From positions 725,501 to 789,500 of the forward strand of contig NZ_OZ038524.1 of the NCBI RefSeq assembly GCF_964036635.1: DNA of 64,000 bases, given 5' to 3'. The position numbers and the translations under genes are program-made. Of this stretch, positions 4,424 through 62,438 are shown one piece after another; the stretch's first letter is position 1, and the number at the start of each line of letters is the position of its first letter. Below the pieces are notes generated by a model that did not search any database, was not told the DNA's origin, and worked only from the letters and a program-made list of their open reading frames with translations. Origin of the DNA: Tenacibaculum dicentrarchi. GTDB taxonomy: Bacteria; Bacteroidota; Bacteroidia; Flavobacteriales; Flavobacteriaceae.

Positions 4424-5395
4424 ATGATACATCAATTATTACGATTTGAACCAATTTTAAAATCTAAAATTTGGGGCGGACAAAAATTAAAAACAGTACT
4501 CCATAAAAAAGCAACCAAAAAAGATGTTGGTGAGAGTTGGGAAATTTCAGACGTACAAGAAGATATTTCAATCGTTAATAATGGCAATTTAAAAGGATGC
4601 TCTTTAAAAGAACTTATTCAGGAATTTAAAGAACAAATTGTTGGCGAAAAAGTATATTTAATTTTTGGAGATAAATTCCCGCTATTAATTAAATTTATTG
4701 ATGCTAAACGTAAATTAAGTTTACAAGTACATCCGAATGATGTTTTGGCACAAAAAAGACATAACTCGCTCGGGAAAACCGAAATGTGGTATATTGTAGA
4801 TGCTGATAAAAAAGCAAAAATAATTATTGGTTTTTCAGAGGAAACCGACAAAAAATCATTCTTAAAAACCGTTGAAAATAACGATGAATTAGCATTATTA
4901 AATGTAGATTATGTTAAAAAAGGCGATACTTTTTTAGTGCCATCAGGACGTGTACACGCTATTGGAAAAGGTGTTTTATTGGCAGAAATACAAGAAACTT
5001 CCGATGTTACCTATCGAATTTCCGATTGGGGAAGAAAAGATTCCAACGGAAAATTAAGAGATTTACACCTGAATTTGGCTTTAGATGCCATTGATTATTC
5101 GGCAAAATCAAACTATAAAGCCGAGTATTTAAAACGTAAAAATAATCCATCAACAATTGTCGATTGTAAATATTTTACCACAAATTATTTGCATTTAACA
5201 CAAGATTTTATCATCAATAATCATGATAAAGATAGTTTCGTAATTTATATGTGCGTGGAAGGAACCGTAATTTTTGTCTATGAAAATCAACATGAAAAAC
5301 TTCGTTTAGGTGAAACTATTTTAGTGCCATCTTGCATTAAAAATGTAACTGTTATCACCAAAAATGCCAAACTTTTAGAAGTTTTTATCAAATAA
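4424..5395 (+). CDS. manA: Mannose-6-phosphate isomerase, class I
   Basis: Interconverts mannose 6-phosphate and fructose 6-phosphate, which supplies GDP-mannose for surface polysaccharides. The 323 residues fit the short bacterial form. The zinc site is complete: Q101 and H103 in LQVHPND, E120 in KTEMWYIVDA and H179 in GRVHAIGKG. The conserved ISDWGR arginine region follows. It starts two bases after the stop of the PTPS gene and ends the idi operon. Confidence 0.94.
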   Translation: MIHQLLRFEPILKSKIWGGQKLKTVLHKKATKKDVGESWEISDVQEDISIVNNGNLKGCSLKELIQEFKEQIVGEKVYLIFGDKFPLLIKFIDAKRKLSLQVHPNDVLAQKRHNSLGKTEMWYIVDADKKAKIIIGFSEETDKKSFLKTVENNDELALLNVDYVKKGDTFLVPSGRVHAIGKGVLLAEIQETSDVTYRISDWGRKDSNGKLRDLHLNLALDAIDYSAKSNYKAEYLKRKNNPSTIVDCKYFTTNYLHLTQDFIINNHDKDSFVIYMCVEGTVIFVYENQHEKLRLGETILVPSCIKNVTVITKNAKLLEVFIK

Positions 5396-5421
5396 AAAAT
5401 ACTTCAAAAGAAGTGTAAAAT

Positions 5422-5455
5422 AAGCCCAAAATAAGTAAATTTTTCATTTTGAGCT
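5422..5455 (+). terminator. Possible terminator after manA
   Basis: An imperfect stem, AAGCcCAAAAT (5422-5432) with ATTTTGaGCTT (5446-5455), then TCTTGTTTTT. It lies between convergent manA and the 5478-5825 gene and could serve both. The T-run is weak. Confidence 0.4.
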
Positions 5456-5477
5456 TCTTGTTTTTAAATATCAAAAT

Positions 5478-5825
5478 TTAAGAGGCTTTTTGTAATTGAT
5501 ATCCAAATAGTGCTTTACAAATAATTTCTTGCTTTTTTTCTTTTTTTGAAACCGTTATCTGTAAAATAATTTCAGTATCATTCAATTTTTTAATATTATT
5601 TTTAATGATAAGATTATCATTTAAATAGGCATTTTTGATAATATCAAAATCAATGCTTTTAAAACTTAAATTAGGGAAATTTTTGTGAAATACAAGGGAG
5701 GAAGTTACGCTGGTTTCAATTTTTTGATATAAAACACCTGTTTTTAGCGTTTTATTTTTGTGAACCTGTTTTTTACTAACGGTAAATTGTGACGTACTAT
5801 TTTTAGAAGTGATTTGGGTATTCAT
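5478..5825 (-). CDS. Hypothetical protein, possibly hotdog-fold (acyl-CoA thioesterase-like)
   Basis: A 115-residue protein that I do not firmly recognise. It lacks a signal peptide and membrane segments. The first 25 residues are polar and low in complexity (S/T/K/Q). The second half, with KNAYLNDNLIIKNNIKKLNDTEIILQITV followed by an alternating strand ending ICKALFGYQL, resembles the long helix-strand pattern of hotdog thioesterases ('..GD.l.i...v.....s.i.i.v.v'). No catalytic residue can be assigned. It is a monocistronic gene facing manA. The thioesterase idea is an inference from pattern only. Confidence 0.55.
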   Translation of the reverse strand: MNTQITSKNSTSQFTVSKKQVHKNKTLKTGVLYQKIETSVTSSLVFHKNFPNLSFKSIDFDIIKNAYLNDNLIIKNNIKKLNDTEIILQITVSKKEKKQEIICKALFGYQLQKAS

Positions 5826-5981
5826 TATTTATGGGTTTATTGGTGGAAATTTAGATTTTTCGTAAAACGGATTTTGAACCAAGGACATTATTGTTTTTAA
5901 GTGCATATTAATTTGTTTTGACATTTTTACGGTGTTCATAGTTTGTTCAATTTTAAAAGGTTTGTGAAAAAAGTATAAAAA

Positions 5982-6013
5982 AAAAGGTGCTTTTTTTATA
6001 AAAAGCACCTTTT
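5982..6013 (-). terminator. Rho-independent terminator, leftward
   Basis: A perfect 11-bp stem, AAAAGGTGCTT with AAGCACCTTTT. Read leftward it is followed by a run of nine T. On the plus strand the T-run is only four, so it mainly serves leftward transcripts such as the candidate small RNA/ORF at 6035-6174. Confidence 0.75.
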
Positions 6014-6034
6014 GTAGTTTGTATTAAATTGGTT

Positions 6035-6163
6035 TTAAAACCGTTGTTTAAAGCGATTACTAGGCGTACTTTTTATATAGGCATATTTTTTGCGCATAGG
6101 CATACACTTTATCATGACGATAGTGTTTAAAATAATGCGATATGTATGTAAAAGTACTTTCAT
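6035..6163 (-). CDS. Possible 42-residue micro-protein overlapping the candidate small RNA
   Basis: An open frame starting MKVLLHTYRIILNTIVMIKC, with a very basic tail (MRKKYAY, RFKQRF). A hydrophobic stretch at residues 10-20 is followed by positive charge. The stop lies about 22 bases before the terminator, and the start lies 18 bases from the -10-like box. It could be a real small basic peptide, or a chance frame inside a structured RNA. I have no family match. Confidence 0.25.
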   Translation of the reverse strand: MKVLLHTYRIILNTIVMIKCMPMRKKYAYIKSTPSNRFKQRF

Positions 6164-6284
6164 TAGAAATTTAGCGAGTTCAAATTTAATAAAAAAATTA
6201 GAAAATAACTAAAAGCTTAAAAATAATACTGTTAAAGTTTTAATAAGTCTAATTTTACTCACTTTAATACTTTATTTAAATATG

Positions 6285-6292
6285 TATCTTTG
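6285..6292 (+). promoter_or_regulatory. -10 (TAnnTTTG) element upstream of kdsB
   Basis: TATCTTTG at 6285-6292, 23 bases before the kdsB start. The -33 region has only TTT at a suitable distance, so the match is partial. Confidence 0.5.
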
Positions 6293-6315
6293 ATTTGTGT
6301 AAATAACTATAATTT

Positions 6316-7050
6316 ATGAAAATAATTGCAATGATTCCCGCGCGTTATAGCGCATCTCGTTTTCCTGGAAAATTAATGAAAAATTTAGGAGGAAAACCTG
6401 TAATTGTAAGAACCTATCAAGCTGCTGTTACTGCCAATTTATTTGATGAGGTTTATGTGGTAACCGATTCGGAAATCATCTTCAAAACCATAGAACAAGC
6501 AGGAGGAAAGGCTATAATGAGCATCAAAGAACACGAATGTGGTTCGGACAGAATTGCCGAAGCTGTTGAAAATTTAGAGGTAGATATTGTGGTAAATGTT
6601 CAAGGAGATGAGCCTTTTATTGATACTGTTTCTTTATCAAAATTAATAAAAGCTTTTGAAGATGATAAAAATAATAGTATAGATTTAGCATCTTTAAAAG
6701 TAGCAATGACATCTTTAGAAGATATTGAAAATCCTAATAATGTAAAGGTAATTACCGATGTAAATGATTTTGCTATCTACTTTTCGAGAAGCGTAATTCC
6801 TTTTCATAGAGATAAAGAATTAAACGTTACATATTATAAACATAAAGGGGTATATGCTTTTAGAAAACAAGCCTTACTCGATTTTTATAATACGCCAATG
6901 ACTCCTTTAGAAGCCGCAGAAAAAATAGAATGTATCCGTTATTTAGAAGTTGGTAAAAAAATAAAAATGATTGAAACATCGGTAGAAAGTATTGGAATTG
7001 ATACGCCTGAAGATTTAGAAAAGGCAATAAAACAACTCGAAAATGAATAA
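6316..7050 (+). CDS. kdsB: 3-deoxy-manno-octulosonate cytidylyltransferase (CMP-KDO synthetase)
   Basis: Activates KDO with CTP to form CMP-KDO for the lipopolysaccharide inner core; cytoplasmic. The 244 residues match the family (about 245-250). The nucleotide-binding loop [14 protein letters not shown] is at 6-19, metal-binding D98 is in VQGDEPF, and 'YFSRSVIPF' and '[13 protein letters not shown]' are family blocks. It heads a tight operon and its end overlaps the HAD hydrolase by 8 bases. Confidence 0.96.
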
Positions 7051-7729
7051 AATAAAAGTAATTGCCTTTGATGCCGATGACACACTCTGGATAAATGAAA
7101 CTTTTTTTAGAGAAGCTGAAAAGGAGTTTGCGAAATTATTATCGGGCTACGAAACTGAAAATAAAATTCATCAGGAGTTATATAAAAAAGAAATTGATAA
7201 CCTTAAAATTTACGGCTATGGCGTAAAAGGTTTCGTGTTATCAATGGTAGAATGTGCTTTAGAATTATCTAATTATAAAGTAAATCAAAAAATTATAGAC
7301 AAAATTCTTGAAATCGGTAAAGAAATGCTAGCCCAACCAATCGATTTATTAGATGGAGTAGAAGAAGTACTGCAAAAATTACAAGGAAGGTGTAAAATAA
7401 TTGTAGCCACCAAAGGTGATTTATTAGATCAGGAGCAAAAATTAGAAAAATCAGGTATTTTAAAATATTTTCATCATACCGAGGTAATGAGCGATAAAAA
7501 ACCAGCCGATTATTTAAAATTGATAAAACATTTAGATATTCAGCCTTCGGAATTATTAATGATTGGAAATTCGTTGAAATCGGATGTTTTGCCTTTAATT
7601 GAAATCGGTGCTGCTGCAATTCATGTGCCTTTTCACACCACTTGGGCGCACGAACAGGTAGAAGGAAATCAAAAATCAACAGAATATCAAACGGTTAGCA
7701 ATATTACCGAAGTGTTAAATTTTTTATAG
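7043..7729 (+). CDS. HAD-family phosphatase
   Basis: A 228-residue haloacid-dehalogenase-type hydrolase. Motif I is FDADDTLW (nucleophile D10, general acid D12), motif II ATKGD near 131, motif III lysine in MSDKKPA, and motif [11 protein letters not shown] helical cap lies between motifs I and II. The substrate is unknown. Its 8-base overlap with kdsB suggests coupling, but the enzyme is not close to KdsC (KDO-8-P phosphatase), which is smaller and lacks this cap. Family members of this type dephosphorylate small phospho-metabolites. Confidence 0.85.
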
Positions 7730-8356
7730 ATGCAATATTTAGATATTGAAAATTGGAATAGAAAACAGCATTTTAATCATTTTAGAACTTTAGCGGATCC
7801 AACATTTGGGCTTGTCGCCGATGTTGATGTTTCTAGTTGTTATCGGCAAGCAAAACAGAAAAAAGAATCTTTTTTTGTGCGATATCTTCACGCATGTATG
7901 AAGGCAATTAATGCCATTGATAATTTAAAATACCGAATAGAAGACGATAAAATAGCAATTCATAAGGTAATTAATGTATCAGCAACTATTGCACGAACAG
8001 ATACTACTTTTGGCTTTTCATTTATTGATTTTTCAACGGATTTTGAGGTGTTTAATGCAAATTATCAGCAAGAAAAAAAGCGTGTACTTAGCACTACTGA
8101 TTTATTCCCACCTAAATATTCAGTAGCTTGTGTACATTGTTCAGCCTTGCCTTGGGTTTGTTTTACAAGTCATAAAGAACCAAATTCGGGAAATAAAAAT
8201 GATAGTATTCCACAATTTTCTTTTGGAAAGATAAAAACAGTAAATAATCAGAAATTAATGCCTGTAGCAATCAATGTAAACCATGCGTTGGTAGATGGAT
8301 ATCATGTAGGACAATTTTTTGATAAATTTCAGGCTGAATTAGATAAAATCGATTAA
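7730..8356 (+). CDS. Chloramphenicol acetyltransferase-family protein
   Basis: 208 residues of the trimeric CAT fold. The catalytic motif HALVDGYH is present near the C-terminus, with base H185 and structural D189. The family blocks 'HFNHFRTLADPTFGL' and 'FSFIDFSTDFEVFNANY' are also visible. CAT enzymes acetylate hydroxyl groups using acetyl-CoA. It begins directly after the HAD gene stop, inside a housekeeping operon with native base composition, so it looks resident and not acquired. Whether it acts on chloramphenicol or on a cell metabolite cannot be told. Confidence 0.85.
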   Translation: MQYLDIENWNRKQHFNHFRTLADPTFGLVADVDVSSCYRQAKQKKESFFVRYLHACMKAINAIDNLKYRIEDDKIAIHKVINVSATIARTDTTFGFSFIDFSTDFEVFNANYQQEKKRVLSTTDLFPPKYSVACVHCSALPWVCFTSHKEPNSGNKNDSIPQFSFGKIKTVNNQKLMPVAINVNHALVDGYHVGQFFDKFQAELDKID

Positions 8357-8377
8357 TTTTGCAAAAAAATAATAATT

Positions 8378-8644
8378 ATGGCAAGCATTAAAAACTTAAA
8401 AAAAGATATCGATTATACTTTAGGAGATATTATTGATATCTGTAGATTATCAGCGGAGTTAAACCCAGGTGAAACAGCAGAAAAATCAGAAGCTATTATA
8501 GATGAAGTTTTTGAAACTTTTGATACTTTAATCGCAAAAATTAATGCTAAAAATGTAGAAAATAAAAAAGCACATTTTAAAGCAATTAGTACTGAATTAG
8601 AAACCAAAGCAAATGCTTTAATAGAAAAATTAAATAGCTTATAG
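8378..8644 (+). CDS. Conserved small hypothetical protein (88 aa)
   Basis: An all-helical, acidic small cytoplasmic protein, with no signal peptide, membrane segment or cysteine pair. The sequence (KNLKKDIDYTLGDIIDIC at the start, then several amphipathic helices) looks like a conserved flavobacterial protein of unknown function. It is the last gene of the kdsB operon, 21 bases after the acetyltransferase, and a terminator follows. Confidence 0.75.
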   Translation: MASIKNLKKDIDYTLGDIIDICRLSAELNPGETAEKSEAIIDEVFETFDTLIAKINAKNVENKKAHFKAISTELETKANALIEKLNSL

Positions 8645-8666
8645 TTAACTGTAAGTTAAATAATTA

Positions 8667-8700
8667 AAACTGATACTTTAACAAGTATCGGTTTTTTTTT
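8667..8700 (+). terminator. Terminator of the kdsB operon
   Basis: AAAACTGATACTT, loop, AAGTATCGGTTTT with one G-T pair, then a T-run. A clear intrinsic terminator. Confidence 0.85.
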
Positions 8701-8789
8701 GCTGAATTTTAACATATTATAAGGAATAAAATGTTGTAAATTACGTTCGTAATGTAGAACATATAAACCCCCGTAAATAAACAATAAGC

Positions 8790-8984
8790 ATGGCAAGAGC
8801 AATGTATGAGTACACCAAAATAGTACTGGAAAAGGTAAGTTTTAATACTGATTTATTTTGTAGAGAGTTAGAAAAAGCATTAAATAGATTATTACCTTAC
8901 GAAATAAATGAATTAACCATTTGGTTAAAACAATATACTGTAAATAAGCCTAAATTATATCCTAGTTTGGCTTTAGTCAAATAA
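8790..8984 (+). CDS. Conserved small hypothetical protein (64 aa)
   Basis: A 64-residue helical protein beginning MARAMYEYTKIVLEKVSFN and containing FCRELEKALNRLLPYE. It looks like a short protein conserved in flavobacteria, with no known function. It stands alone between two terminators. The 145-base upstream gap holds a small palindrome, ATTACGttCGTAAT (8740-8753), that could be an operator. Confidence 0.7.
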   Translation: MARAMYEYTKIVLEKVSFNTDLFCRELEKALNRLLPYEINELTIWLKQYTVNKPKLYPSLALVK

Positions 8985-8991
8985 TTTTAAT

Positions 8992-9021
8992 AAAAAAAGA
9001 AGCTATATAGCTTCTTTTTTT
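8992..9021. terminator. Bidirectional terminator
   Basis: AAAAAAAGAAGCTATATAGCTTCTTTTTTT, a perfect palindrome with T-runs both ways. It is shared by the 64-aa gene and the convergent 9049-10491 gene. Confidence 0.9.
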
Positions 9022-9048
9022 ATTAAAGTCAAAGTAAGTGAAAAATGA

Positions 9049-10491
9049 TTAAACTCGTTTTCTAGAACATCCGAATAAACGTTTATCTTTAATGGTTTTA
9101 GAAACTCCTTCAGGAAGCATTTCTTCCCAGCCTTTTTCATTATTTTTAATCATCGTTAAAACTTTTCTAGAAAAAATATGTAAACTATTTTCATCTAAGT
9201 TTTTAATATCTACAAATCTTCCATTATGTTTGAAAAATTTATATAATTCTTTCATTCGAGGATGTACTTTTAGGTTTTCAGTATTTATGAATTCACCTGT
9301 TTCTTGGTCTTTATAAGGATAGGTGTATATTTTTAAATCTCTGTAAAAAAGTTTACCAGAAGCTTCTAAAATTCCACCGCTAAGGTTACGATAATATTTT
9401 TCATCAAAAATTTGAACAAGACTCTGAACCCCCATTGTTAAAGCCATTCTTTCTTTTGTAAATTCACCAAAATAATCAACTAGTTTAAAGTATTCTTGAT
9501 AGTTGGTAATCATTACATTTTGCCCAAGTGCACAAAGTAACTCGGCTCTGTCTAAGAAATCACGTTCATTAATTTCTCCTTCTGAACGAAGATTACTAAG
9601 GGTAATTTCGAAAATAATTTGTGTTTTATCGGGGTTTACTTTTTTTTCTGCTAAAAATAATTGTTTAGAACGTTCAAACATATCCATATTTACTTTGGTA
9701 ACAGGGCGATAGCTTCCACGTAATGCTAAAATATTCTTTTTATAAAGTACTTGAGCAGGTAATAAGTTATTTCCATCAGGACCGAACATTACGGCATTTG
9801 TCATTCCATTTTTAACTAATTGTAAGCTCATTAAACGATTATCGACATACATAAATCGAGGTCCAGAGAAATTAATCATATCAATTTCTAAGCGGTCACT
9901 ATCAATATTATCGTAAAAAGATTTTAATAACTCCTTTGGATTATCATTTAAATAATATGCTCCATATACTAAGTTAACTCCTAAAACACCTAAAGTTTCT
10001 TGTTGCTGACGTGCATCAGTTTCTTTAAAACGTAGGTGTAAAATAATTTCGTTATAATCTTCTAAAGGGTCTAGCTGAAAACGAATACCAACCCAACCGT
10101 GTCCTTTAAATTTTTTAGAAAAATTAATTGTTGCAACGGTATTTGCATAGCTAAAAAATAATTTATGAGGATGTTTTTGACGATCAAGACGATCTTCAAT
10201 TAAATCCATTTCATGTTTTAGCATTTTTTTTAATCGCTTTTCAGTTACATAACGATTATCACTTTCAATTCCATAAATAGCATCTGAAAAATCTTTATCA
10301 TAAGCACTCATTGCTTTTGCAATAGTACCTGAAGCACCACCAGCTCTAAAAAAATTACGAACAGTTTCTTGTCCTGCACCAATTTCAGCAAATGTTCCAT
10401 AAATATGAGAATTTAAGTTAATTTTTAACGCTTTACTATTTGTGGTGGGTACGGTACTTATTTTTTTATCTCCTTTAAGTGTGATGGCCAT
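9049..10491 (-). CDS. Conserved protein of unknown function (480 aa)
   Basis: A large soluble protein that I recognise as a conserved Bacteroidota family (start MAITLKGDKKISTVPTTNSK, then the near-invariant block GTFAEIGAGQETVRNFFRAGG). Such proteins are sometimes labelled 'TonB-dependent receptor' or 'nicotinate mononucleotide adenylyltransferase' in databases. Neither label is supported here: no signal peptide, no barrel, no HIGH/ISSTxxR nucleotidylyl-transfer motif. There are no membrane segments. It is a single-gene unit, and a TACATTTG -10 element lies at 10516-10523. Function unknown. Confidence 0.85.
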   Translation of the reverse strand: MAITLKGDKKISTVPTTNSKALKINLNSHIYGTFAEIGAGQETVRNFFRAGGASGTIAKAMSAYDKDFSDAIYGIESDNRYVTEKRLKKMLKHEMDLIEDRLDRQKHPHKLFFSYANTVATINFSKKFKGHGWVGIRFQLDPLEDYNEIILHLRFKETDARQQQETLGVLGVNLVYGAYYLNDNPKELLKSFYDNIDSDRLEIDMINFSGPRFMYVDNRLMSLQLVKNGMTNAVMFGPDGNNLLPAQVLYKKNILALRGSYRPVTKVNMDMFERSKQLFLAEKKVNPDKTQIIFEITLSNLRSEGEINERDFLDRAELLCALGQNVMITNYQEYFKLVDYFGEFTKERMALTMGVQSLVQIFDEKYYRNLSGGILEASGKLFYRDLKIYTYPYKDQETGEFINTENLKVHPRMKELYKFFKHNGRFVDIKNLDENSLHIFSRKVLTMIKNNEKGWEEMLPEGVSKTIKDKRLFGCSRKRV

Positions 10492-10515
10492 TTTTCTAAT
10501 TTTATGTTATCGCTA

Positions 10516-10523
10516 CAAATGTA
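10516..10523 (-). promoter_or_regulatory. -10 element upstream of the 480-aa protein gene
   Basis: TACATTTG on the minus strand, 24 bases before the ATG. No good TTG at -33. A TATTTTTG element for the divergent MBL gene sits at 10557-10564. Confidence 0.45.
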
Positions 10524-10583
10524 CTTAAAATAGCAACTATGATATACTTTTTGTCTTATTTTTGTGTTAACAATTAAGAAAAA

Positions 10584-11348
10584 ATGCAATTGAAAATTAC
10601 TTTTTTAGGTACAGGAACGTCTACGGGCGTTCCGATGATTAATAGTACGCATCCTGTGGCGTTGTCTAACAATTTTAAAGATAAGCGTTTGCGTTCATCA
10701 ATTCTTGTCTCTTGGGATGATATTAATTATGTTATTGATTGTGGTCCTGATTTTAGGCAACAAATGATGCGTGAAAAAGTAGCATCAATAAACGGAATTT
10801 TATTTACCCATGAACATGCAGACCATATTGCTGGTTTAGATGAAATCCGTCCGTATTGTTTTCAAATGGGGGCAGTGCCTATTTATACAACCGAAAGAGT
10901 ATTAGGAGTTTTAAAGAAAAGATATGATTATATTTTTAAAACAGAAAATAGATATCCGAGTGCACCCGCAGTAGCTACTAATATTATTTCACATAAAAAT
11001 AGTTTTACTCTTGATGGTGTTAAAGTTACTCCGATAGAGGTAATGCATGGAAGGTTACCTATTTTAGGGTATCGTTTTAATAATATAGCCTACTTAACAG
11101 ATATTAAAACTATTTCATCCGAAGAAAAAAAGAAATTGACTAATTTAGATGTTTTAATTGTTACAGGATTACGAAAAGAACCACATGCAACACATTTTAA
11201 TTTAGAAGAGTCATTGGCTTTTATTGCCGAAATAAAACCTAAAAAAGCTTATTTAACGCATATTAGTGAATTATTAGGTTTGCATGAAGAAGTTGAAAAA
11301 GAATTGCCTGAAAATGTATTTTTAGCTTATGACGGTTTAAAAATTTAA
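10584..11348 (+). CDS. MBL-fold metallo-hydrolase, PhnP / cyclic phosphodiesterase-like
   Basis: 254 residues of the metallo-beta-lactamase fold. The metal-binding motif THEHADH is at 75-81. The opening FLGTGTSTGVPM and the later 'EVMHGRLPILGYRF' and 'LTHISELLGLHEE' carry the remaining ligands. This is the pattern of PhnP-type enzymes, which open cyclic phosphodiesters such as phosphoribosyl 1,2-cyclic phosphate, and of related RNase Z-like hydrolases. No phn genes are nearby, so the true substrate is open. Confidence 0.88.
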   Translation: MQLKITFLGTGTSTGVPMINSTHPVALSNNFKDKRLRSSILVSWDDINYVIDCGPDFRQQMMREKVASINGILFTHEHADHIAGLDEIRPYCFQMGAVPIYTTERVLGVLKKRYDYIFKTENRYPSAPAVATNIISHKNSFTLDGVKVTPIEVMHGRLPILGYRFNNIAYLTDIKTISSEEKKKLTNLDVLIVTGLRKEPHATHFNLEESLAFIAEIKPKKAYLTHISELLGLHEEVEKELPENVFLAYDGLKI

Positions 11349-11454
11349 TATTTATTTTTCTAATATTAGTATTGATTTAAAGTATCAGAATTAGTTTGGT
11401 GGTTTAAAAGTGTATGCTATTTTTACATTAAAAATTAATTCAAACACTAATTGA

Positions 11455-12213
11455 ATGAAAATAATTATATCTCCAGCAAAGTCCTTAGATTTTGAAACAA
11501 AAGCTTCTACAAAATTATATTCTCAACCTCGTTTTTTAGAATATTCAACAAAATTAAACACAAAATTAAAAACACTTTCTAAACAAGATTTAAGTGATTT
11601 AATGAAAATTTCTGATGATTTGTCAAACTTAAATTATCAACGAAACCAAGATTGGCAAACTCCTTTTAATTTAGAAAATGCGAAACAGGCAATTTATTCT
11701 TTTACAGGAGCAGTTTTTAAAGGTATTGATGTAAATTCTTTATCCGAAGAAAAAATACCAACTTTACAAAATAATCTTAGAATTTTATCAGGATTATATG
11801 GCTTATTAAAACCTTTAGATTTAATTCAACCGTATCGTTTGGAAATGAAAACGAAATTAAAAGTAGGCGAAACCGAGAATTTATATAAATTTTGGAATAA
11901 TGAATTGGTAAATTCGTTAAATGATGAGTTAGAAGACGGAGAATTATTAGTAAACTTAGCGAGTTTAGAATATTTTAAAGCTTTGCCTAAAAAACTTTTA
12001 AAAGTACCAATGATAACGCCTGTTTTTAAAGATTTTAAAAATGGCGAATATAAAACTATCATGACTTTTGCTAAAAAAGCAAGAGGATTAATGGCGCGTT
12101 ATATTATCGAAAATAATGTTAAAACAATAGAAGAATTAAAAGGTTTTAATATTGATAATTATGGTTTTTCTGAAGAAATGTCAACTGAAACGGAATTATA
12201 TTTTACTAGATAA
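11455..12213 (+). CDS. yaaA: Peroxide stress protein YaaA (UPF0246)
   Basis: 252 residues, the usual length for the family. Signatures are SPAKSLDF at the N-terminus and 'LSGLYGLLKPLDLIQPYRLEM' in the middle, followed by 'FKNGEYKTIMTFAKKARGLMARYI'. E. coli YaaA lowers free iron during hydrogen peroxide stress and has a DNA-binding-like fold; that role is transferred by family. The SanA-like gene starts one base after its stop. Confidence 0.94.
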   Translation: MKIIISPAKSLDFETKASTKLYSQPRFLEYSTKLNTKLKTLSKQDLSDLMKISDDLSNLNYQRNQDWQTPFNLENAKQAIYSFTGAVFKGIDVNSLSEEKIPTLQNNLRILSGLYGLLKPLDLIQPYRLEMKTKLKVGETENLYKFWNNELVNSLNDELEDGELLVNLASLEYFKALPKKLLKVPMITPVFKDFKNGEYKTIMTFAKKARGLMARYIIENNVKTIEELKGFNIDNYGFSEEMSTETELYFTR

Positions 12214-55781: not shown

Positions 55782-58700
55782 TTGAAATTAATCAAACAAA
55801 AGAAATTATATTTTTCAGATGAAAAATCAGACAAAGTTTATGAAGTTGACTTATGTGAAAGTCAAGATTTATTTATAGTAAACTTTAGATATGGAAAAAG
55901 AGGTGCGAGTTTAAGAGAAGGCACTAAAACTGTTTTTCCTGTATCTTATGAAGAAGCTGAGAAAATCTTTAATAAATTAGTCGGAAGTAAAGAAAAGAAA
56001 GGGTATTCAGAAGCAAATTTATCAGAAAAAAAACAAGTTGAAAATCCGAAGAAAGAAGAAAAAAGTACTACACGAAAAGATACTATTTTAAAGTATCTAA
56101 ATCAAGCTTTAAAAGGAACTTATACCAGAAATTGGAAAGTAGCTAGAATTATAAATAGAGTAGGTGTTTTAAAAATAAAAGAAGCAATACCATTAATCGC
56201 TCAATTTATTCATTCATCAGATAAGTTTGAACAGTATAACGCGTTATCAGTATTAATTGATTTTAATGAATCAAATTATGTTGAAGATGCAATTAAAATC
56301 TTCAAAAAAGATACTTTTAATACAATTGGAGGAAGAGTTTCCGTAGCTTATATTTTGAAATATGGAAATACTTCGGATATAGAAACGGTACAAAATGAAG
56401 CTAGAAAATATATTACAAAAGTAAAATTAGATTCTTTAAAAACACGACTTTTAGCAGAAATTTTAGGAGAGAACCCGAAAAATCCGATGCTATTATTTTA
56501 TGTTTATATTTATTCCTTTAATAACGAAAAATTAAGATTGGAGTTATTGGAAGTAATAGAAGAAATTCCGTTAAAAGTAGATACTTTTAAATCTGTACGC
56601 TATATTTATCGAACAGCTTATGCAACAAATGACACTCAATTTTTTGCTTTAGTATCTAAACGAATTGCTATTAGTAACGGAACTTACAGTTCTGATTTCC
56701 CATATATAAATGATGAATATGATTGGGTAGAAGCATCCGAAGAAAAGAAAAAACCAAATCCGAGAATTGCTTTTTCAGGAAAAACCAAAAACTATTTTAA
56801 TAAAAATACCTATCAGAAAGTATATACTTTAAGTACAGATAATCAAGAAGCATATATTGAATATGCTAAAGAATTATTATGTTCCTTAAATGATAAAGAA
56901 GATACTGCTCCTGAAAATAGAACTACCGAATGGGTTTATAATCGAGAAACAGGATATGAACCAGAATTTAGATGTTACCCTAAATATCATCAATTTTTAG
57001 CTTTAATGTATATCTTGTATGGAAATTCAACAAGGTTTAAATGTATCGGTAATAAATGGTTTTATATTGATGAACTTACTGATAACAGTATAAGAGAAGA
57101 TATTTTACCTGCTGTTTGGAATAAAAAACCATCCGAAGTATTGTCTATTCTAGCCAATGCAAAAAGTAGTATTGCAGTTGATTTTTCATTGAAAATTATA
57201 AAAGAAAATCCACATTTTTTAGAAAATTTATCCGAAGAAATACTAGCGAAATTAATACGACATTATCATCCGAAGGTATTAAATTTAATAGCTGAGGTTT
57301 TAGAACAAAAATATGCGATAGCCCAAGCTCCTGAAGAAATTCTATTGATTTTAGTATCTTCAAGATATAAAAAAGTTGTTGAATTAGGATTAAAATGGTT
57401 AGATAAATATGAAAATTCGTATTTATCAAATCCTTCTTTAGTAACAAAATTATTGCTTACTGATGAGGTTTTAATCATCGATTATTTAAGTAATTTATAT
57501 AAAAATAATGTAGCATATAATATGCCGATTTTTATAGATGATTTAATAACATTGTTTGATGAGCCTTCTACATATACTTCTGAATTTTTAATAGCGGTTA
57601 ATTATTTAATCGGAAATACATTTTTTGGAAAATTATTAAGTGAAATATCTGCTCAATATATTATCAGTTTATCGGCTTCAAGTTCTATAACAAATCAATT
57701 ATTTGCAATTAATTTAGCAAAACATAATACTACATCGGTTTATGAACTTTTTAAAGAGAATTATAAAGAATATATTGCCTCAGATGAAGCGATTTTAAGA
57801 AGTGCAGGAATTGAAATTTTAGCATATTTTCCTGATGAATTTTTATTGGAAAATAAACAAGATATAATTAAATTTTGTTTTTCAGAACATGAAACCGTTA
57901 GAAAAGCAATACAACCGACAATTCGTAAATTAATTCATTTAGATGAAGAATTTAAAGAGTATTTACGTAAAAAATTATTAGCTTATTTAGTAGAAGATGA
58001 AACGTATGAAGGTTTACATCAAAATTGTTATAAAACTTTAATACAATTTTATGGAACTCAAATAAATGCAGTATCTGAAGAAGAAATAATAGCATTAATT
58101 TTATCAAAACATGAATTTGCACAGAAATTAGGAACGCCACTTTTTGAAAAAAATGTGGATATGAATAATTTAAAAATGTCTAAATTAGTTCGTTTAGCAC
58201 ATAGTGATGTATTTTCTGTAAGAACACAATTACATAATTATTTTAAAAATAACGTAGCCAGAGTAAATTACGAATTAGAAGAAGCATTGCCTATTTTTAA
58301 TACAAATTGGCAAGATGTTATTGATTGGGCGGATGCTTACTTTAAAACATCTATTGAAGCTAAAAATTGGACAGTACCATTACTATTATATGTGTGTGAC
58401 CATGTAAAAGAACAAGTACAACTATTAGGTAGAAGCCTAATAACAACTCATTTTTCAGAAGAAAAAGGATTACCATTACTTGTTAGTTTACAAGAGCATC
58501 CAACAAAAAATATGCAGTTTTTTGTAACCAATTATTTAGAAGGATATGCATCAGATAATATTAAAGTTATCTTACAATTAGAAGATTATTTTAAAACAAC
58601 CTTATTTTATATAAATACCAATAGAGCAACAAAAACAAGAGTATATTCTTTTTTAGAAAATCAATCTAAAAAATATAAAGAAATTGCTGAGATGACCGTA

Positions 58701-58820
58701 AGAGTTTTAACAGCTATTTTAGATACAAAAACTGCCATTGATAAAAATAAAGTTATAGAGATTTTAATTACTATATCTGAAATACATACAGATGTAGAAG
58801 TGCCATTATTAATTAAATAA
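55782..58820 (+). CDS. WGR-domain protein with long HEAT/ARM-like repeat array (retron accessory protein)
   Basis: 1012 residues. Residues 1-75 are a WGR domain (KKLYFSDEKSDKVYEV, FIVNFRYGKRGASLREGTKT), a module found in PARPs and in MolR-type proteins and thought to bind nucleic acid or protein ends. A charged linker follows (about 76-105). The rest is alpha-solenoid: helix pairs such as 'KEAIPLIAQFIHSSDKFEQYNALSVLIDF', 'AQKLGTPLFEKNVDMNNLKMSKLVRLAHS' run to the end. A distinct central part (about 385-430, 'NRETGYEPEFRCYPKYHQFLALMYILYG') may be a separate small domain. The start must be the TTG at 55782: a stop lies in frame 24 bases upstream and no ATG occurs within the WGR domain. First gene of the retron; I see no nuclease or ATPase motif. 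Confidence 0.88.
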   Translation: MKLIKQKKLYFSDEKSDKVYEVDLCESQDLFIVNFRYGKRGASLREGTKTVFPVSYEEAEKIFNKLVGSKEKKGYSEANLSEKKQVENPKKEEKSTTRKDTILKYLNQALKGTYTRNWKVARIINRVGVLKIKEAIPLIAQFIHSSDKFEQYNALSVLIDFNESNYVEDAIKIFKKDTFNTIGGRVSVAYILKYGNTSDIETVQNEARKYITKVKLDSLKTRLLAEILGENPKNPMLLFYVYIYSFNNEKLRLELLEVIEEIPLKVDTFKSVRYIYRTAYATNDTQFFALVSKRIAISNGTYSSDFPYINDEYDWVEASEEKKKPNPRIAFSGKTKNYFNKNTYQKVYTLSTDNQEAYIEYAKELLCSLNDKEDTAPENRTTEWVYNRETGYEPEFRCYPKYHQFLALMYILYGNSTRFKCIGNKWFYIDELTDNSIREDILPAVWNKKPSEVLSILANAKSSIAVDFSLKIIKENPHFLENLSEEILAKLIRHYHPKVLNLIAEVLEQKYAIAQAPEEILLILVSSRYKKVVELGLKWLDKYENSYLSNPSLVTKLLLTDEVLIIDYLSNLYKNNVAYNMPIFIDDLITLFDEPSTYTSEFLIAVNYLIGNTFFGKLLSEISAQYIISLSASSSITNQLFAINLAKHNTTSVYELFKENYKEYIASDEAILRSAGIEILAYFPDEFLLENKQDIIKFCFSEHETVRKAIQPTIRKLIHLDEEFKEYLRKKLLAYLVEDETYEGLHQNCYKTLIQFYGTQINAVSEEEIIALILSKHEFAQKLGTPLFEKNVDMNNLKMSKLVRLAHSDVFSVRTQLHNYFKNNVARVNYELEEALPIFNTNWQDVIDWADAYFKTSIEAKNWTVPLLLYVCDHVKEQVQLLGRSLITTHFSEEKGLPLLVSLQEHPTKNMQFFVTNYLEGYASDNIKVILQLEDYFKTTLFYINTNRATKTRVYSFLENQSKKYKEIAEMTVRVLTAILDTKTAIDKNKVIEILITISEIHTDVEVPLLIK

Positions 58821-58834
58821 GAATAAGAAAAAGA

Positions 58835-60466
58835 ATGAAGTTTAATTTTAAATATAGTGGTAATAGTAGTGTTAGTAATACCATGGCATCTACAGGAGTA
58901 AGTTTTGCTCCTGATACATTAAGAGAGCCTACATATTTTGTAGGAAGCCTAGATAAAAAAATTCCTTTTAGAGAGGCTATTTCAGCTTTACATCATGTAG
59001 TAATTGCCGATTTTAATTTTCAACCAAAAGATAATACAGAATACTTAGCTTGGTTAAAAGGTCAGGAAGAGGTATGGATTGCCGAAGCAACAGCTCAATT
59101 ATCAGGGTTAAAAGAAGATATTAATCATCTTCAAGAAAAATTAAAAAAATTACGCCTAAAAAGAGAAGAAATTACAAAGCCTTTTTATGATGCGCAACGA
59201 AAATATTTTAATTATCTATATAAACGAGATTATGCTGCTTGGTTTGTTTTAGACCCCGTAATTACAGTACACCCAGACCAAGTGTTTTTTGAGTGTTTTA
59301 GTCAAGATGAATCTGTTTATGGAAAATTATCTTGTGGTTATGATGTTTTTAAAAATATAAATGAGTTTAAATGTGGAACTACAAATATTGATTATTCGAA
59401 AGAATTATATAATGAGTTTCAGAAAATAAGAACTTATAAAGAAACAGAGTTTAAAGTAGATCCAACGGGTTTTGATGTAAAAACAACAGGAGAAGATACT
59501 TATAGAGAAGTAAAAATTGATTTACCAGATAGTTGGGTTCGTGGTTTTTTACAAGTAAGTAGTGCCATGACAAGTGATAAAGTATCTTTTGATTTGCATC
59601 CTGTGGATATTGCTAATTTTATAGCAGTATTAAAAAGACACAAAGAAAAGAAAGGTCCAAGGGCGATAAAATATATATTGAAACCTGGTAAACCTATTAT
59701 TGCTGTTTTTGAACCTTGGAATATTGAAGTGGCTTGTTTACAATCTATATATAAAGGTGATGAAGAAAAAGAAATAAGAGTTTGGGGAAGAAGAAGAATA
59801 ACGCTTTTAGAACGATTATTGCCAATTACGACTAAATTCACTGTTCATTTATTGGGTAGCGGTATGCCGTCATTTTATATCGCACATTTGGCAAATGATA
59901 TGTATTTTACATTAGGATTATCTGGTTGGACAGCTAATGATTGGACGCAAACAACTAATTTAGATTTACTTTCACCTAGAGGACAAGTTCCTGCTACTAC
60001 CATGCAAACTATTTATTTAGCATTGCGAAAGGATTGGTTAAATACTCCGAGTAATTTAGCTAAAGATTTAGGATTAGATAAAACAATTGTAACACAATCA
60101 TTACAAACTTTTACACAAGCAGGAAAAGTAGTGTACGATTTAAAGAATAATGTATATCGAATTAGAGAATTAAAAAAAGATGGAATTGATTTAGATAGCT
60201 TACGTTTTTCTAATGAAATTGATAAAAAAGCCTATGAACTGATGGAGTCAGGAGCTGTTTCAAATTTAAAAACAGCTATAGATGGTAGTAATATAAACAT
60301 AAATGCAACAGTAAGTAATAATTATAAAACAAATGTACTTATTAACAACGACCTACAAATTGTTGATGCTAAGTGTGTTTGTAGTTATTATCATCAAAAT
60401 AAAATGACAAAAGGACCTTGTGAACATATTTTAGCCACAAGAATTGCTTTTGATAAAAAAAATTAA
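58835..60466 (+). CDS. Winged-helix/SWIM zinc-finger protein (WHSWIM, retron accessory protein)
   Basis: 543 residues. A coiled-coil lies at about 85-125 ('GLKEDINHLQEKLKKLRLKREEI'). A large central domain (about 130-380) has no name that I know. A winged-helix-like segment is at about 388-445 ('QTIYLALRKDWLNTPSNLAKDLGLDKTIVTQSLQTFTQAGKVVYDLKNNVYRI'). The C-terminal SWIM finger has C514-x-C516, 12 residues, C529-x-H531, the exact SWIM pattern CxC…CxH. SWIM and winged helix both point to DNA/RNA or protein contact. It is 14 bases after the WGR gene and 14 before the a1 sequence of the ncRNA. Likely part of the effector complex; its activity is unknown. Confidence 0.87.
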   Translation: MKFNFKYSGNSSVSNTMASTGVSFAPDTLREPTYFVGSLDKKIPFREAISALHHVVIADFNFQPKDNTEYLAWLKGQEEVWIAEATAQLSGLKEDINHLQEKLKKLRLKREEITKPFYDAQRKYFNYLYKRDYAAWFVLDPVITVHPDQVFFECFSQDESVYGKLSCGYDVFKNINEFKCGTTNIDYSKELYNEFQKIRTYKETEFKVDPTGFDVKTTGEDTYREVKIDLPDSWVRGFLQVSSAMTSDKVSFDLHPVDIANFIAVLKRHKEKKGPRAIKYILKPGKPIIAVFEPWNIEVACLQSIYKGDEEKEIRVWGRRRITLLERLLPITTKFTVHLLGSGMPSFYIAHLANDMYFTLGLSGWTANDWTQTTNLDLLSPRGQVPATTMQTIYLALRKDWLNTPSNLAKDLGLDKTIVTQSLQTFTQAGKVVYDLKNNVYRIRELKKDGIDLDSLRFSNEIDKKAYELMESGAVSNLKTAIDGSNININATVSNNYKTNVLINNDLQIVDAKCVCSYYHQNKMTKGPCEHILATRIAFDKKN

Positions 60467-60480
60467 TATATTTAAACCCT

Positions 60481-60701
60481 GGTAGTAATAAGATAACGAC
60501 CTTGCAATTTGATTGGTGTATCACCAATCTAGCTTACAGACACCGAACGCGTCACTGACTCGAACTTAACTTGTGAAATAGGTACTATAGTGCCATTTCC
60601 TGTTATACTTCTTCGAAGTGAAATAGCACTATAGTACCTATTTCACTGGAGTTGTTCAATTCAGTCTTTAGAATTGTACGAAGATATATCTTATTGCTAC
60701 C
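60481..60701 (+). ncRNA. Retron msr-msd non-coding RNA
   Basis: The gap before the RT folds as a retron template. a1 GGTAGTAATAAGATA (60481-60495) pairs with a2 TATCTTATTGCTACC (60687-60701), 15 bp including one U-G. msr side: stem GATTGGTG (60511-60518) with CACCAATC (60522-60529), loop TAT, followed by TAGC. msd side: a hairpin at 60573-60646 whose 21-base arms (60573-60593 and 60626-60646) are perfectly complementary. It continues with ATTTC/GAAAT and ACTTC/GAAGT toward the tip. A further stem GTTCAATTC (60654-60662) with GAATTGTAC (60671-60679) lies before a2. The priming guanosine is not certain: G60498 right after a1 or G60532 in TAGC. Exact transcript ends need RNA data. Confidence 0.88.
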
Positions 60702-60713
60702 TTTTTTTGTTTT

Positions 60714-62165
60714 ATGGATAATTCAGCTACGAGAAAACAAGAGATTTACGACAAAATTAAAGAATCATCAAAACATGAATTTATTCTTTCAGAAATGAAA
60801 CGATTAGGTTTTTGGGGTGATGATAACGTGAATTTCGATAAAGTAAACGATTTTTTAAAAGAAGAAAATGCTCTATCAGGAGATTTATCAAAACTTTTAA
60901 AAAAGGAAAGACTAATAAAAGATACTGATGCTTTTATCGCCAATAAACACAAAGAGCGAAAGAAGTTATCAAAAGAAAAACAAAAAGAAACTAAGCTTAA
61001 AAGAGAACAAATCCGTAAGGAAAAAGCGGAAAAATGGCAGCAGACCAAAAAAGAAGATATTACTTATTTAGGTGCTGGTTATTCTCATCAGTTAAACGAT
61101 ACTCAAATAGATGAGGTAAGACTCAAAGAAGCTGGTTTACCAATTTATCATTCGGTAAAAGATTTAGCTGAGGCTATGAAAATTACGGTAAATGAACTTC
61201 GGTTTTTAGCTTTTTCAAGAAAAAACTCACAAATTGAACACTACAAACGTTTTAAAGTTGCTAAAAAATCAGGCGGATATCGTTTAATTTCTGCGCCAAT
61301 GCCTCGATTGAAAAGAGCGCAACACTTTATTTTAGAAAATATTTTAAATAAAGTAATTGTTCATGATAAAGCTCATGGTTGTGTAAAAGAAAGGTCAATT
61401 ATTAGTAATGCAATGCCTCATTTAAATAAAGCGGTTGTTATTAATCAAGATTTGAAAAACTTTTTTCCATCAGTTACTTATAAAAGAATAAAAGGCGTTT
61501 TTAAATCTTTAGGATATTCAGAACAATTAGCAGTTATTTTTTCATTATTATGTTCAGAATCTAAAATTTTAGATATTTCGTTATTAGGTGAAAATTACTT
61601 TTCAAAAAGAGGAGAACGTTTTCTACCACAAGGCTCGCCTTGTAGCCCTGCGATAACTAATATTTTATGTCGTAAAATGGATTATCGATTAGATGGTTTA
61701 GCTAAAAAATATGGTTTTGATTATTCTAGATATGTTGATGATACTACTTTTTCAGGAAATCATGAACAATTTAAACACATTACAGCAATATTAAAATATT
61801 CTAAAAAAATCATATCCGAAGAAAATTTTAATTTACATCCTGATAAGCTTAAAATAATGAAGCGAAATCAACGACAGGAAGTAACAGGTATTGTAGTGAA
61901 TGAAAAATTGAATATTGATAAAAAATCATTAAAACGTTTTAGAGCATTGTTATATCAAATTGAAAAAGAAGGTATCGCAGGGAAAACATGGAACGGCGGA
62001 TTGAATGTTTTAGCAGAAATTGATGGATATGCAAATTATATTTATCAAGTAGATAAAGAAAAAGGTGTTAAGTATAAAAGTCAAGTAGCAGATATTTTAA
62101 AAGCGCATTCTTATAAAGAAAGTAAAGGAATTTTTAATAAAATAAATTCGTTGTTCAAAAGATAA
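60714..62165 (+). CDS. Retron reverse transcriptase
   Basis: 483 residues. RT motifs: catalytic aspartate in NQDLKNFFPS (D246), QGSPCSPA (306-313), YVDD (340-343). Retron-specific signatures: NAMPH (232-236, NAxxH of region X) and VTG (390-392, region Y). These rule out group II intron, DGR and Abi-type RTs. An N-terminal extension of about 115 residues precedes the RT core: a helical part (1-70) and a very Lys/Glu-rich coiled stretch (78-113). The ATG comes 12 bases after a2, with no visible ribosome site. It would reverse-transcribe the msd part of the upstream RNA into msDNA and hold it in a complex. Confidence 0.95.
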   Translation: MDNSATRKQEIYDKIKESSKHEFILSEMKRLGFWGDDNVNFDKVNDFLKEENALSGDLSKLLKKERLIKDTDAFIANKHKERKKLSKEKQKETKLKREQIRKEKAEKWQQTKKEDITYLGAGYSHQLNDTQIDEVRLKEAGLPIYHSVKDLAEAMKITVNELRFLAFSRKNSQIEHYKRFKVAKKSGGYRLISAPMPRLKRAQHFILENILNKVIVHDKAHGCVKERSIISNAMPHLNKAVVINQDLKNFFPSVTYKRIKGVFKSLGYSEQLAVIFSLLCSESKILDISLLGENYFSKRGERFLPQGSPCSPAITNILCRKMDYRLDGLAKKYGFDYSRYVDDTTFSGNHEQFKHITAILKYSKKIISEENFNLHPDKLKIMKRNQRQEVTGIVVNEKLNIDKKSLKRFRALLYQIEKEGIAGKTWNGGLNVLAEIDGYANYIYQVDKEKGVKYKSQVADILKAHSYKESKGIFNKINSLFKR

Positions 62166-62438
62166 TAGTTTAAAAAAAATCTAAATTTACCAAAAAAGCG
62201 TTTTCTTTTTTAATCTTTATTTAGAGCCTGTTTAAAAATCAAATTTTCGTCATGCTGAATTTATTTCAGCATTGCATCAACAGTAGAACTAGGGCAAATC
62301 AGAATGCGAACCTGAAATAAATTCAGGTTGACGGATTCGATTTTCTGTTTTTCTGTATAAACTATAAAACGTTTTTTAGATGAAGTTTAAACAAGCTCTT
62401 AAGATTAATAAGAAAACGCCTATTAAAAATTATCTAAA
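62166..62438. other. Spacer after the retron RT
   Basis: 273 bases with no reading frame that I support. Contains a large inverted repeat at 62247-62334. No clear terminator for the RT is seen other than that palindrome; a T-rich patch is at 62203-62212. Confidence 0.6.
62247..62334. repeat. Large imperfect inverted repeat at the retron right flank
   Basis: Arms read TCGTCATGCTGAATTTATTT and its complement AAATAAATTCAGGTTGACGG, about 24 bp with three or four mismatches, at 62248-62271 and 62311-62334. Such 'GTCATGCTGAA…TTCAGG' palindromes are common dispersed elements in flavobacteria (recalled, not searched). Confidence 0.75.

Follow-up and report, generated by a model that had tools for sequence, protein, structure and literature searches.

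An intact type XIII retron in Tenacibaculum dicentrarchi, with a predicted clamp-like SWIM protein and a predicted membrane anchor on its reverse transcriptase

Organization of the locus

The window analysed here, a stretch of 64,000 nucleotides of Tenacibaculum dicentrarchi DNA (contig NZ_OZ038524.1, positions 725,501 to 789,500) that is part of a 2.81 Mb single-contig genome, carries an intact type XIII retron, a member of an already known retron type. Three open reading frames (ORFs) without internal stops occupy 55782-58820, 58835-60466 and 60714-62165 on the + strand, and together with a noncoding RNA (ncRNA) they give the order WGR gene, SWIM gene, ncRNA and reverse transcriptase (RT), separated by 14, 14 and 12 bases. 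An earlier note on this DNA had described four co-directional parts with gaps of 12-14 bases, and that description is borne out, all four being intact:

55782..58820, + strand: WGR and HEAT/ARM solenoid protein, 1012 amino acids (aa), TTG start (WGR_XIII 988 bits; PF05406; structure model)
58835..60466, + strand: SWIM protein, 543 aa (SWIM_XIII 750 bits; PF04434)
60481..60701, + strand: retron ncRNA (msr-msd), from a1 to a2 (fold energy, alignment, covariation)
60714..62165, + strand: retron RT, 483 aa (RT_XIII 591 bits; Pfam; tree; motifs)

The same note had named a 1012-aa WGR and solenoid protein, a 543-aa SWIM protein and the RT signatures NAMPH, YVDD and VTG. The domains pass the curated Pfam cut-offs (WGR 27.1 bits against 22, SWIM 21.8 against 19.6, RVT_1 77.3 against 29.6), the model of the first protein is mostly helical after residue 95, and the three RT motifs stand at residues 232, 340 and 390. 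The assignment to type XIII proposed there agrees with a PADLOC profile search in which all three proteins were matched almost over their full length (WGR_XIII residues 1-1012, SWIM_XIII 1-542, RT_XIII 2-471), the RT_XIII score of 591 bits comparing with 288 for the next-best PADLOC RT model.

In a tree of 36 RTs, a branch with support of 98/93 separates 24 type XIII RTs (18 of clade A, that of Methylobacterium, two of clade B and three of clade C) from 12 others, and the window's RT lies inside this single clade rather than outside the retron clades. The 12 comparison RTs were found with the same model; for three of them less than half of the alignment row is filled, and the tree contains some long branches. 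It leaves out L001, L004, L010, L015 and duplicate loci. The two upstream genes are likewise tied to close RT homologues, as 14 of 16 related loci of the genome collection preserve the order WGR-SWIM-RT, contig ends interrupting the other two (L006 and L015). The locus is read as an ordinary type XIII member because of the profile matches, the covariation of the ncRNA described below, the RT clade and the shared gene order.

The retron ncRNA

The earlier note had placed a retron ncRNA between the SWIM and RT genes, and both folding and covariation speak for it. The region folds at -86.1 kcal/mol, compared with a mean of -44.6 for shuffled sequences (z -9.6; 0/200 shuffles as low), and the consensus fold of 19 distinct sequences holds 73 pairs, 17 of which have changed on both sides: 13 belong to the long msd helix, three to the a1/a2 stem and one to a short stem between them. 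That number was reached in none of 500 shuffles, a figure inflated by the kinship of the sequences, while 65/500 reached the 33 further pair types. Paired cells make up 99.3% of 1385, compared with 35-47% after a shift of the partners by 1-3 columns. The parts of the ncRNA are:

60481..60494, + strand: a1 arm of the outer stem (consensus fold)
60504..60504, + strand: predicted branching G in ACCTTGC (invariant in the alignment; analogy with retron Ec86)
60573..60646, + strand: long msd hairpin (12 pairs changed on both sides here)
60662..60679, + strand: conserved 3' template stretch CAGTCTTTAGAATTGTAC (alignment)
60688..60701, + strand: a2 arm of the outer stem (consensus fold)

The G of ACCTTGC is invariant in the alignment and is also present in three further loci (L044 of Methylobacterium bullatum, L049 and L050); ACCTTGC and TTAGAA..TACGAAGG are both kept in L049 and L050, whose ncRNAs were located with these motifs, and L044 has a close variant of the second, the motifs of L044 and of the clade A loci having been seen in regions excised by position. 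On the model of Ec86, the branching G would be that at 60504 and cDNA synthesis would start opposite 60679, so that the branched multicopy single-stranded DNA (msDNA) is expected to begin near GTACAATTC; the msDNA made from this ncRNA would carry a long duplex stem. A C-A mismatch recurs within the otherwise near-perfect msd stem of many sequences (alignment columns 121-122 with 153-154). The stem arms have a palindromic look, yet no more than 3/16 distinct arms beat shuffles at p<=0.005, and the claim of a palindrome was dropped. No retron family of Rfam matched 60400-60800, where seven matches were found, all below gathering scores (six miRNA-type hairpins and one cis-regulatory element).

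Relatives and distribution

Of the fetched loci, L001 of T. dicentrarchi is the nearest named relative, with an identical ncRNA and identities of 95.7% for the WGR protein, 100% for the SWIM protein and 97.7% for the RT (residues 1-470). A decayed or non-functional copy has to be considered, because the stretch 60680-60688, which links GAAG to a2, lacks 7-14 bases relative to the other 18 aligned sequences and the RT has 483 aa compared with 513 in that T. dicentrarchi copy; the intact ORFs, the preserved ncRNA stems and the near-identical copies in public genomes make this extremely improbable.

The RT was found in 3/58 genomes of the genus Tenacibaculum, in all three flanked by ThiF-like and SDR genes, and a profile of the SWIM family run on 345 Bacteroidota genomes gave six matches (E up to 1e-12), every one in a locus with a type XIII RT; this search also brought up G748, a fourth Tenacibaculum genome. 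Such a patchy spread is common for defence genes. In 14/14 loci the solenoid protein shows the lowest conservation among the three proteins; in Aquimarina (L009), for example, identities are 71% for SWIM, 62% for RT and 49% for WGR. Gene order varies within the type: it is ncRNA-RT-WGR-SWIM in L049 and L050, and the clade C loci L051-L053 combine a HEAT-type protein with SWIM and RT, the RT being preceded by a gap of 6-10 bases. In L051 and L053 the match of the HEAT protein to WGR_XIII is confined to the region near the C-terminus, in L052 and L053 the N-terminal WGR match is absent, and the clade C HEAT protein and the WGR protein are similar at the C-terminus only (94%). In L052 and L053, a stretch rich in hairpins that precedes the HEAT gene is a likely ncRNA candidate, which there would lie upstream of the whole operon and not before the RT. 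The locus of M. bullatum, found on a record of 2.8 Mb that is classed as a plasmid, has the window's order, with an RT 42.8% and a SWIM protein 45.5% identical; this complete type XIII retron (4762-11790) lies where an incomplete gene table lists no gene.

The SWIM and WGR proteins

Within the two upstream genes the following regions were delimited:

within 55782..58820, + strand: WGR domain, residues 11-79, followed by a helical solenoid, ~95-1012 (PF05406; model)
58934..59926, + strand: predicted PCNA-like two-domain clamp fold, SWIM residues 34-364 (predicted model)
59015..59251, + strand: coiled-coil-like insert in clamp domain 1, SWIM residues ~61-139 (helices 68-86 and 92-133 predicted with low confidence)
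59993..60139, + strand: winged-helix region, SWIM residues ~387-435 (predicted secondary structure; weak HTH_24 matches)
60335..60436, + strand: SWIM zinc-finger motif, residues 501-534 (PF04434)

The WGR protein was modelled with confidence (predicted local distance difference test, pLDDT, 88.6) as a WGR domain followed by helical repeats that include a small element rich in strands at ~379-428, and its structural matches are general HEAT/ARM solenoids. The predicted model of the SWIM protein contains two tandem clamp domains, and residues 34-364 are accordingly predicted to adopt a PCNA-like clamp fold, a statement about likeness only. HTH_24 was matched in 14/53 members of the SWIM family (E up to 10; best E 0.0045). 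Neither the profile searches nor the fold searches, the latter covering chiefly WGR residues from 448 on and SWIM residues 34-371, gave a catalytic, nuclease or pore domain in either protein.

SWIM genes are also found without an RT. In four plasmid loci (L045, L046, L047 and L048), a large partner of the DUF6493/DUF7824 type directly follows the SWIM gene, 4/4, and most of the coiled-coil insert has no counterpart in these four SWIM relatives. One of the four loci adjoins an integrase gene. The WGR protein and the clade C HEAT protein were tried as relatives of DUF6493 and rejected, with no similarity (0.2% and 0.1%), and no mention of DUF6493 was found in the literature searched. These RT-free relatives, the clamp-like fold and the membrane-type RT tail described below are additions to what the earlier note contained.

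The matches of the SWIM structure in a viral structure library include phage clamps, and uncharacterised proteins of the Tenacibaculum phages PTm1 (E 8.8e-6) and pT24 (E 1.4e-4) match the clamp-like fold, both among the top 50. In the phage collection, relatives of the SWIM protein at E up to 1e-5 were absent. These structural matches bring in an alternative in which the SWIM protein is a sensor and not a killer, a clamp mimic that would bind or mix with the phage clamp or clamp-bound replication proteins, the complex responding to phage replication. It draws on the predicted fold and on the phage clamps among the matches; what is shared is a predicted fold, and two Tenacibaculum phages out of 50 may be chance because clamp proteins are abundant in viruses. 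We consider this alternative rather unlikely.

The reverse transcriptase and its tail

Two regions of the RT lie outside its recognized domain:

60714..61067, + strand: N-terminal extension, residues 1-118 (no match to a solved RT reaches into it)
62121..62162, + strand: C-terminal tail SKGIFNKINSLFKR, a predicted amphipathic cationic membrane anchor (tail comparison and classing)

Matches to solved RTs comprise 15 distinct sequences, none starting before query residue 119, and residues 1-118 are for that reason regarded as an extension unseen in the matched structures. At the other end, the RT domain is followed by a variable linker and a conserved end, SKGIFNKINSLFKR in the window and FIKKLFSWFKL or FLKKLFSIFKK in others. 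When the last 40 residues of the best 120 of 2460 RT homologues were classed, 93 ended in a cationic amphipathic helix, the class into which the window's tail falls by the same rule, 15 in a Trp-rich stretch (e.g., PWWKFW), four in a transmembrane helix and eight in none of these; without the Trp-rich class, the least sure, 97/120 are left. The same rule scored 0/120 SWIM C-termini, 4/120 WGR C-termini (three transmembrane, one amphipathic; the best 120 homologues in each case), 2/12 other RTs, 117/1200 internal RT stretches and 111/1200 shuffled tails. Among the 24 type XIII RTs taken from loci, clade A has 16 amphipathic tails out of 18 (the exceptions being L014 and L039), those of L049 and L050 are Trp-rich and that of L044 is transmembrane. 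The RT of Citrobacter farmeri (P0348), 49% identical, also has a transmembrane tail; no relatives of this RT were found in the phage collection (E up to 1e-60).

We predict that the RT is pinned to the inner membrane via this tail, the main argument being that three kinds of membrane element swap at one place in homologous RTs. The composition of the tail, like that of membrane-active peptides (we take RT tails to resemble antimicrobial peptides), would also suit a harmful element, freed or exposed to damage the membrane, with the SWIM and WGR proteins as the sensor. A single short tail on a constantly present polymerase would, in our judgement, suit an anchor better; SWIM/DUF6493 pairs occur without any RT, and clade C RTs have no such tail, all of which makes a harmful tail quite improbable. 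The tail might otherwise be a docking peptide of a cytosolic toxin-antitoxin retron, for example a clamp-binding motif that joins the RT to the clamp-like SWIM protein, since h-x-S-[LFIW]-F is the usual ending of the clade A tails and presumably resembles clamp-binding peptides, and the partner is itself clamp-like. Because the tail gives way to transmembrane helices in L044 (Methylobacterium), P0348 (Citrobacter) and another three homologues, which suits a membrane anchor better than a shared docking peptide, the docking peptide is kept only as a rival, and one that we find quite improbable.

A proposed mechanism

We propose, with even chances of being right, that the locus encodes a membrane-tethered type XIII retron with a clamp-like SWIM protein that acts in abortive-infection defence, the RT-msDNA complex holding the SWIM/WGR pair until the msDNA is disturbed. 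This proposal builds on the observed parts and their order, the profile matches, the covariation, the RT clade, the gene linkage and the recurrence of the tail, and also on the predicted clamp fold and the predicted anchor. The RT-msDNA complex, tethered to the inner membrane, would hold the pair inactive, and a phage that disturbs the msDNA would release it. The N-terminal extension of the RT and the coiled coil of the SWIM protein may form the contact between RT and effector, a role assigned to them as each of these add-ons is absent from the relatives of its protein. Once freed, the SWIM protein (clamp, winged helix and zinc finger) and the WGR/solenoid protein would engage DNA and halt replication, a DNA-binding block being the simplest reading of the effector because no catalytic, nuclease or pore domain was found. 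The hold-and-release logic is transferred by analogy from other retrons, in which RT and RT-DNA are reported to hold a toxic effector that is freed upon infection (PMC12548924) and the msDNA of Eco8 is reported to sense phage single-stranded DNA-binding protein (PMC13158370).

A more specific and tentative picture, which we think possible but on balance doubtful, is that of a membrane-tethered DNA-clamp machine: the exchangeable tail would anchor the RT, which would hold clamp and solenoid on the msDNA, and the released pair would close on DNA and arrest replication, this pair predating the retron and existing alone as SWIM-DUF6493.

Several points weigh against the proposed mechanism. With regard to the clamp, the fold comes from a single AlphaFold2 run with a mean pLDDT of 70 (55.5-70 for the five models). 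Among the families listed (25/66 in the case of 53 SWIM proteins, and those of the four RT-free ones), there was no PCNA or beta-clamp family at E up to 10, in a search in which the HMMER filters already drop weak matches at that threshold. Conserved basic residues gather at the channel helices with p 0.004-0.006 when 3-5 residues of padding are added to the helices and with p 0.45 when helix residues alone are counted (a test with hand-set boundaries, p 5.6e-5, was not used). The fold search barely covered WGR residues before 448 and SWIM residues outside 34-371, where a small domain could escape. As for the anchor, the clade C RTs of L051-L053 have no membrane-type tail, the tail classes and thresholds were set after the tails had been seen, the 120 RT homologues are mutually related, two of the 12 other RTs also score and eight of the 120 homologues fall below the thresholds, and at least one homologue counted as amphipathic, P0357, has just three residues following its RT domain.

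If true, an anchored RT and a clamp-like partner would give type XIII a testable mechanism, and the host of the C. farmeri RT homologue with the transmembrane tail is close to E. coli, which makes that homologue a candidate for tests. Anchoring of a retron RT to the membrane and the use of a PCNA-like clamp by bacteria in phage defence would, to our knowledge, both be new principles. The literature searched, in which few subscription journals are covered, held no description of effector action in type XIII, and where the type was met by name, it stood among PADLOC hits listed for Variovorax; this sparse mention fits the remark of the earlier note that the effector mechanism is poorly understood. 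The same literature gave nothing related for retrons with membrane terms and no joint occurrence of 'SWIM zinc finger' and 'sliding clamp', and among the matches listed no title or abstract opening joined a retron to a sliding clamp. XIII, WGR and SWIM are absent as whole words from the main text of PMC12548924, and the passages of PMC7824862 examined contain nothing on the type XIII system.

Flanking sequence

Upstream, seven of the ORFs between 43478 and 55665 were scanned against PADLOC, and the sole match was a ThiF-like gene (E1-E2), which by our reading adjoins thiazole genes and is ordinary. Directly downstream of the RT, at 62205-62345, lies a dispersed inverted-repeat element with 43 matches in the genome, a count that includes a few sites read on both strands; the element apparently splits the arms of what is one terminator-like hairpin in L002-L004.

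Comparison with known systems

With Ec86, the window's RT shares a similar RT domain (E 1.3e-40, residues 133-417) and differs in its N-terminal extension, which is unmatched there; we take the a1-CCUU-G and GAAGG layout of the ncRNA to resemble that of Ec86, which presumably has a different effector and no membrane tail. The tail itself is, as we understand them, like the membrane-targeting helices of the MinD/FtsA type, which are C-terminal, short, cationic and amphipathic and follow a linker, with the difference that it sits on a retron RT and that its membrane binding is a prediction. Compared with PCNA and the 9-1-1 clamps, the SWIM protein shows ~10% identity without a sequence-family match, and it has in addition the coiled-coil insert, a fused winged helix and the SWIM motif.

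The SWIM proteins of the RT-free pairs with DUF6493/DUF7824/DUF7825 are homologous to those of type XIII over 429 columns (99.8%, E 2.5e-28), and these pairs differ in that no RT was found there and in the lack of the full coiled-coil insert. The yehF-yehQ cluster of E. coli (WGR, MoxR, VWA and SWIM) also pairs WGR and SWIM proteins; YehI and YehQ were rejected as relatives, the similarity of YehQ being limited to the SWIM motif (4.5% probability) and YehI having none. With retron type XIII as defined in PADLOC, the locus differs in nothing that would remove it from the type, within which gene order itself varies, and the two have in common all three protein models, the RT-adjacent ncRNA and the gene set.

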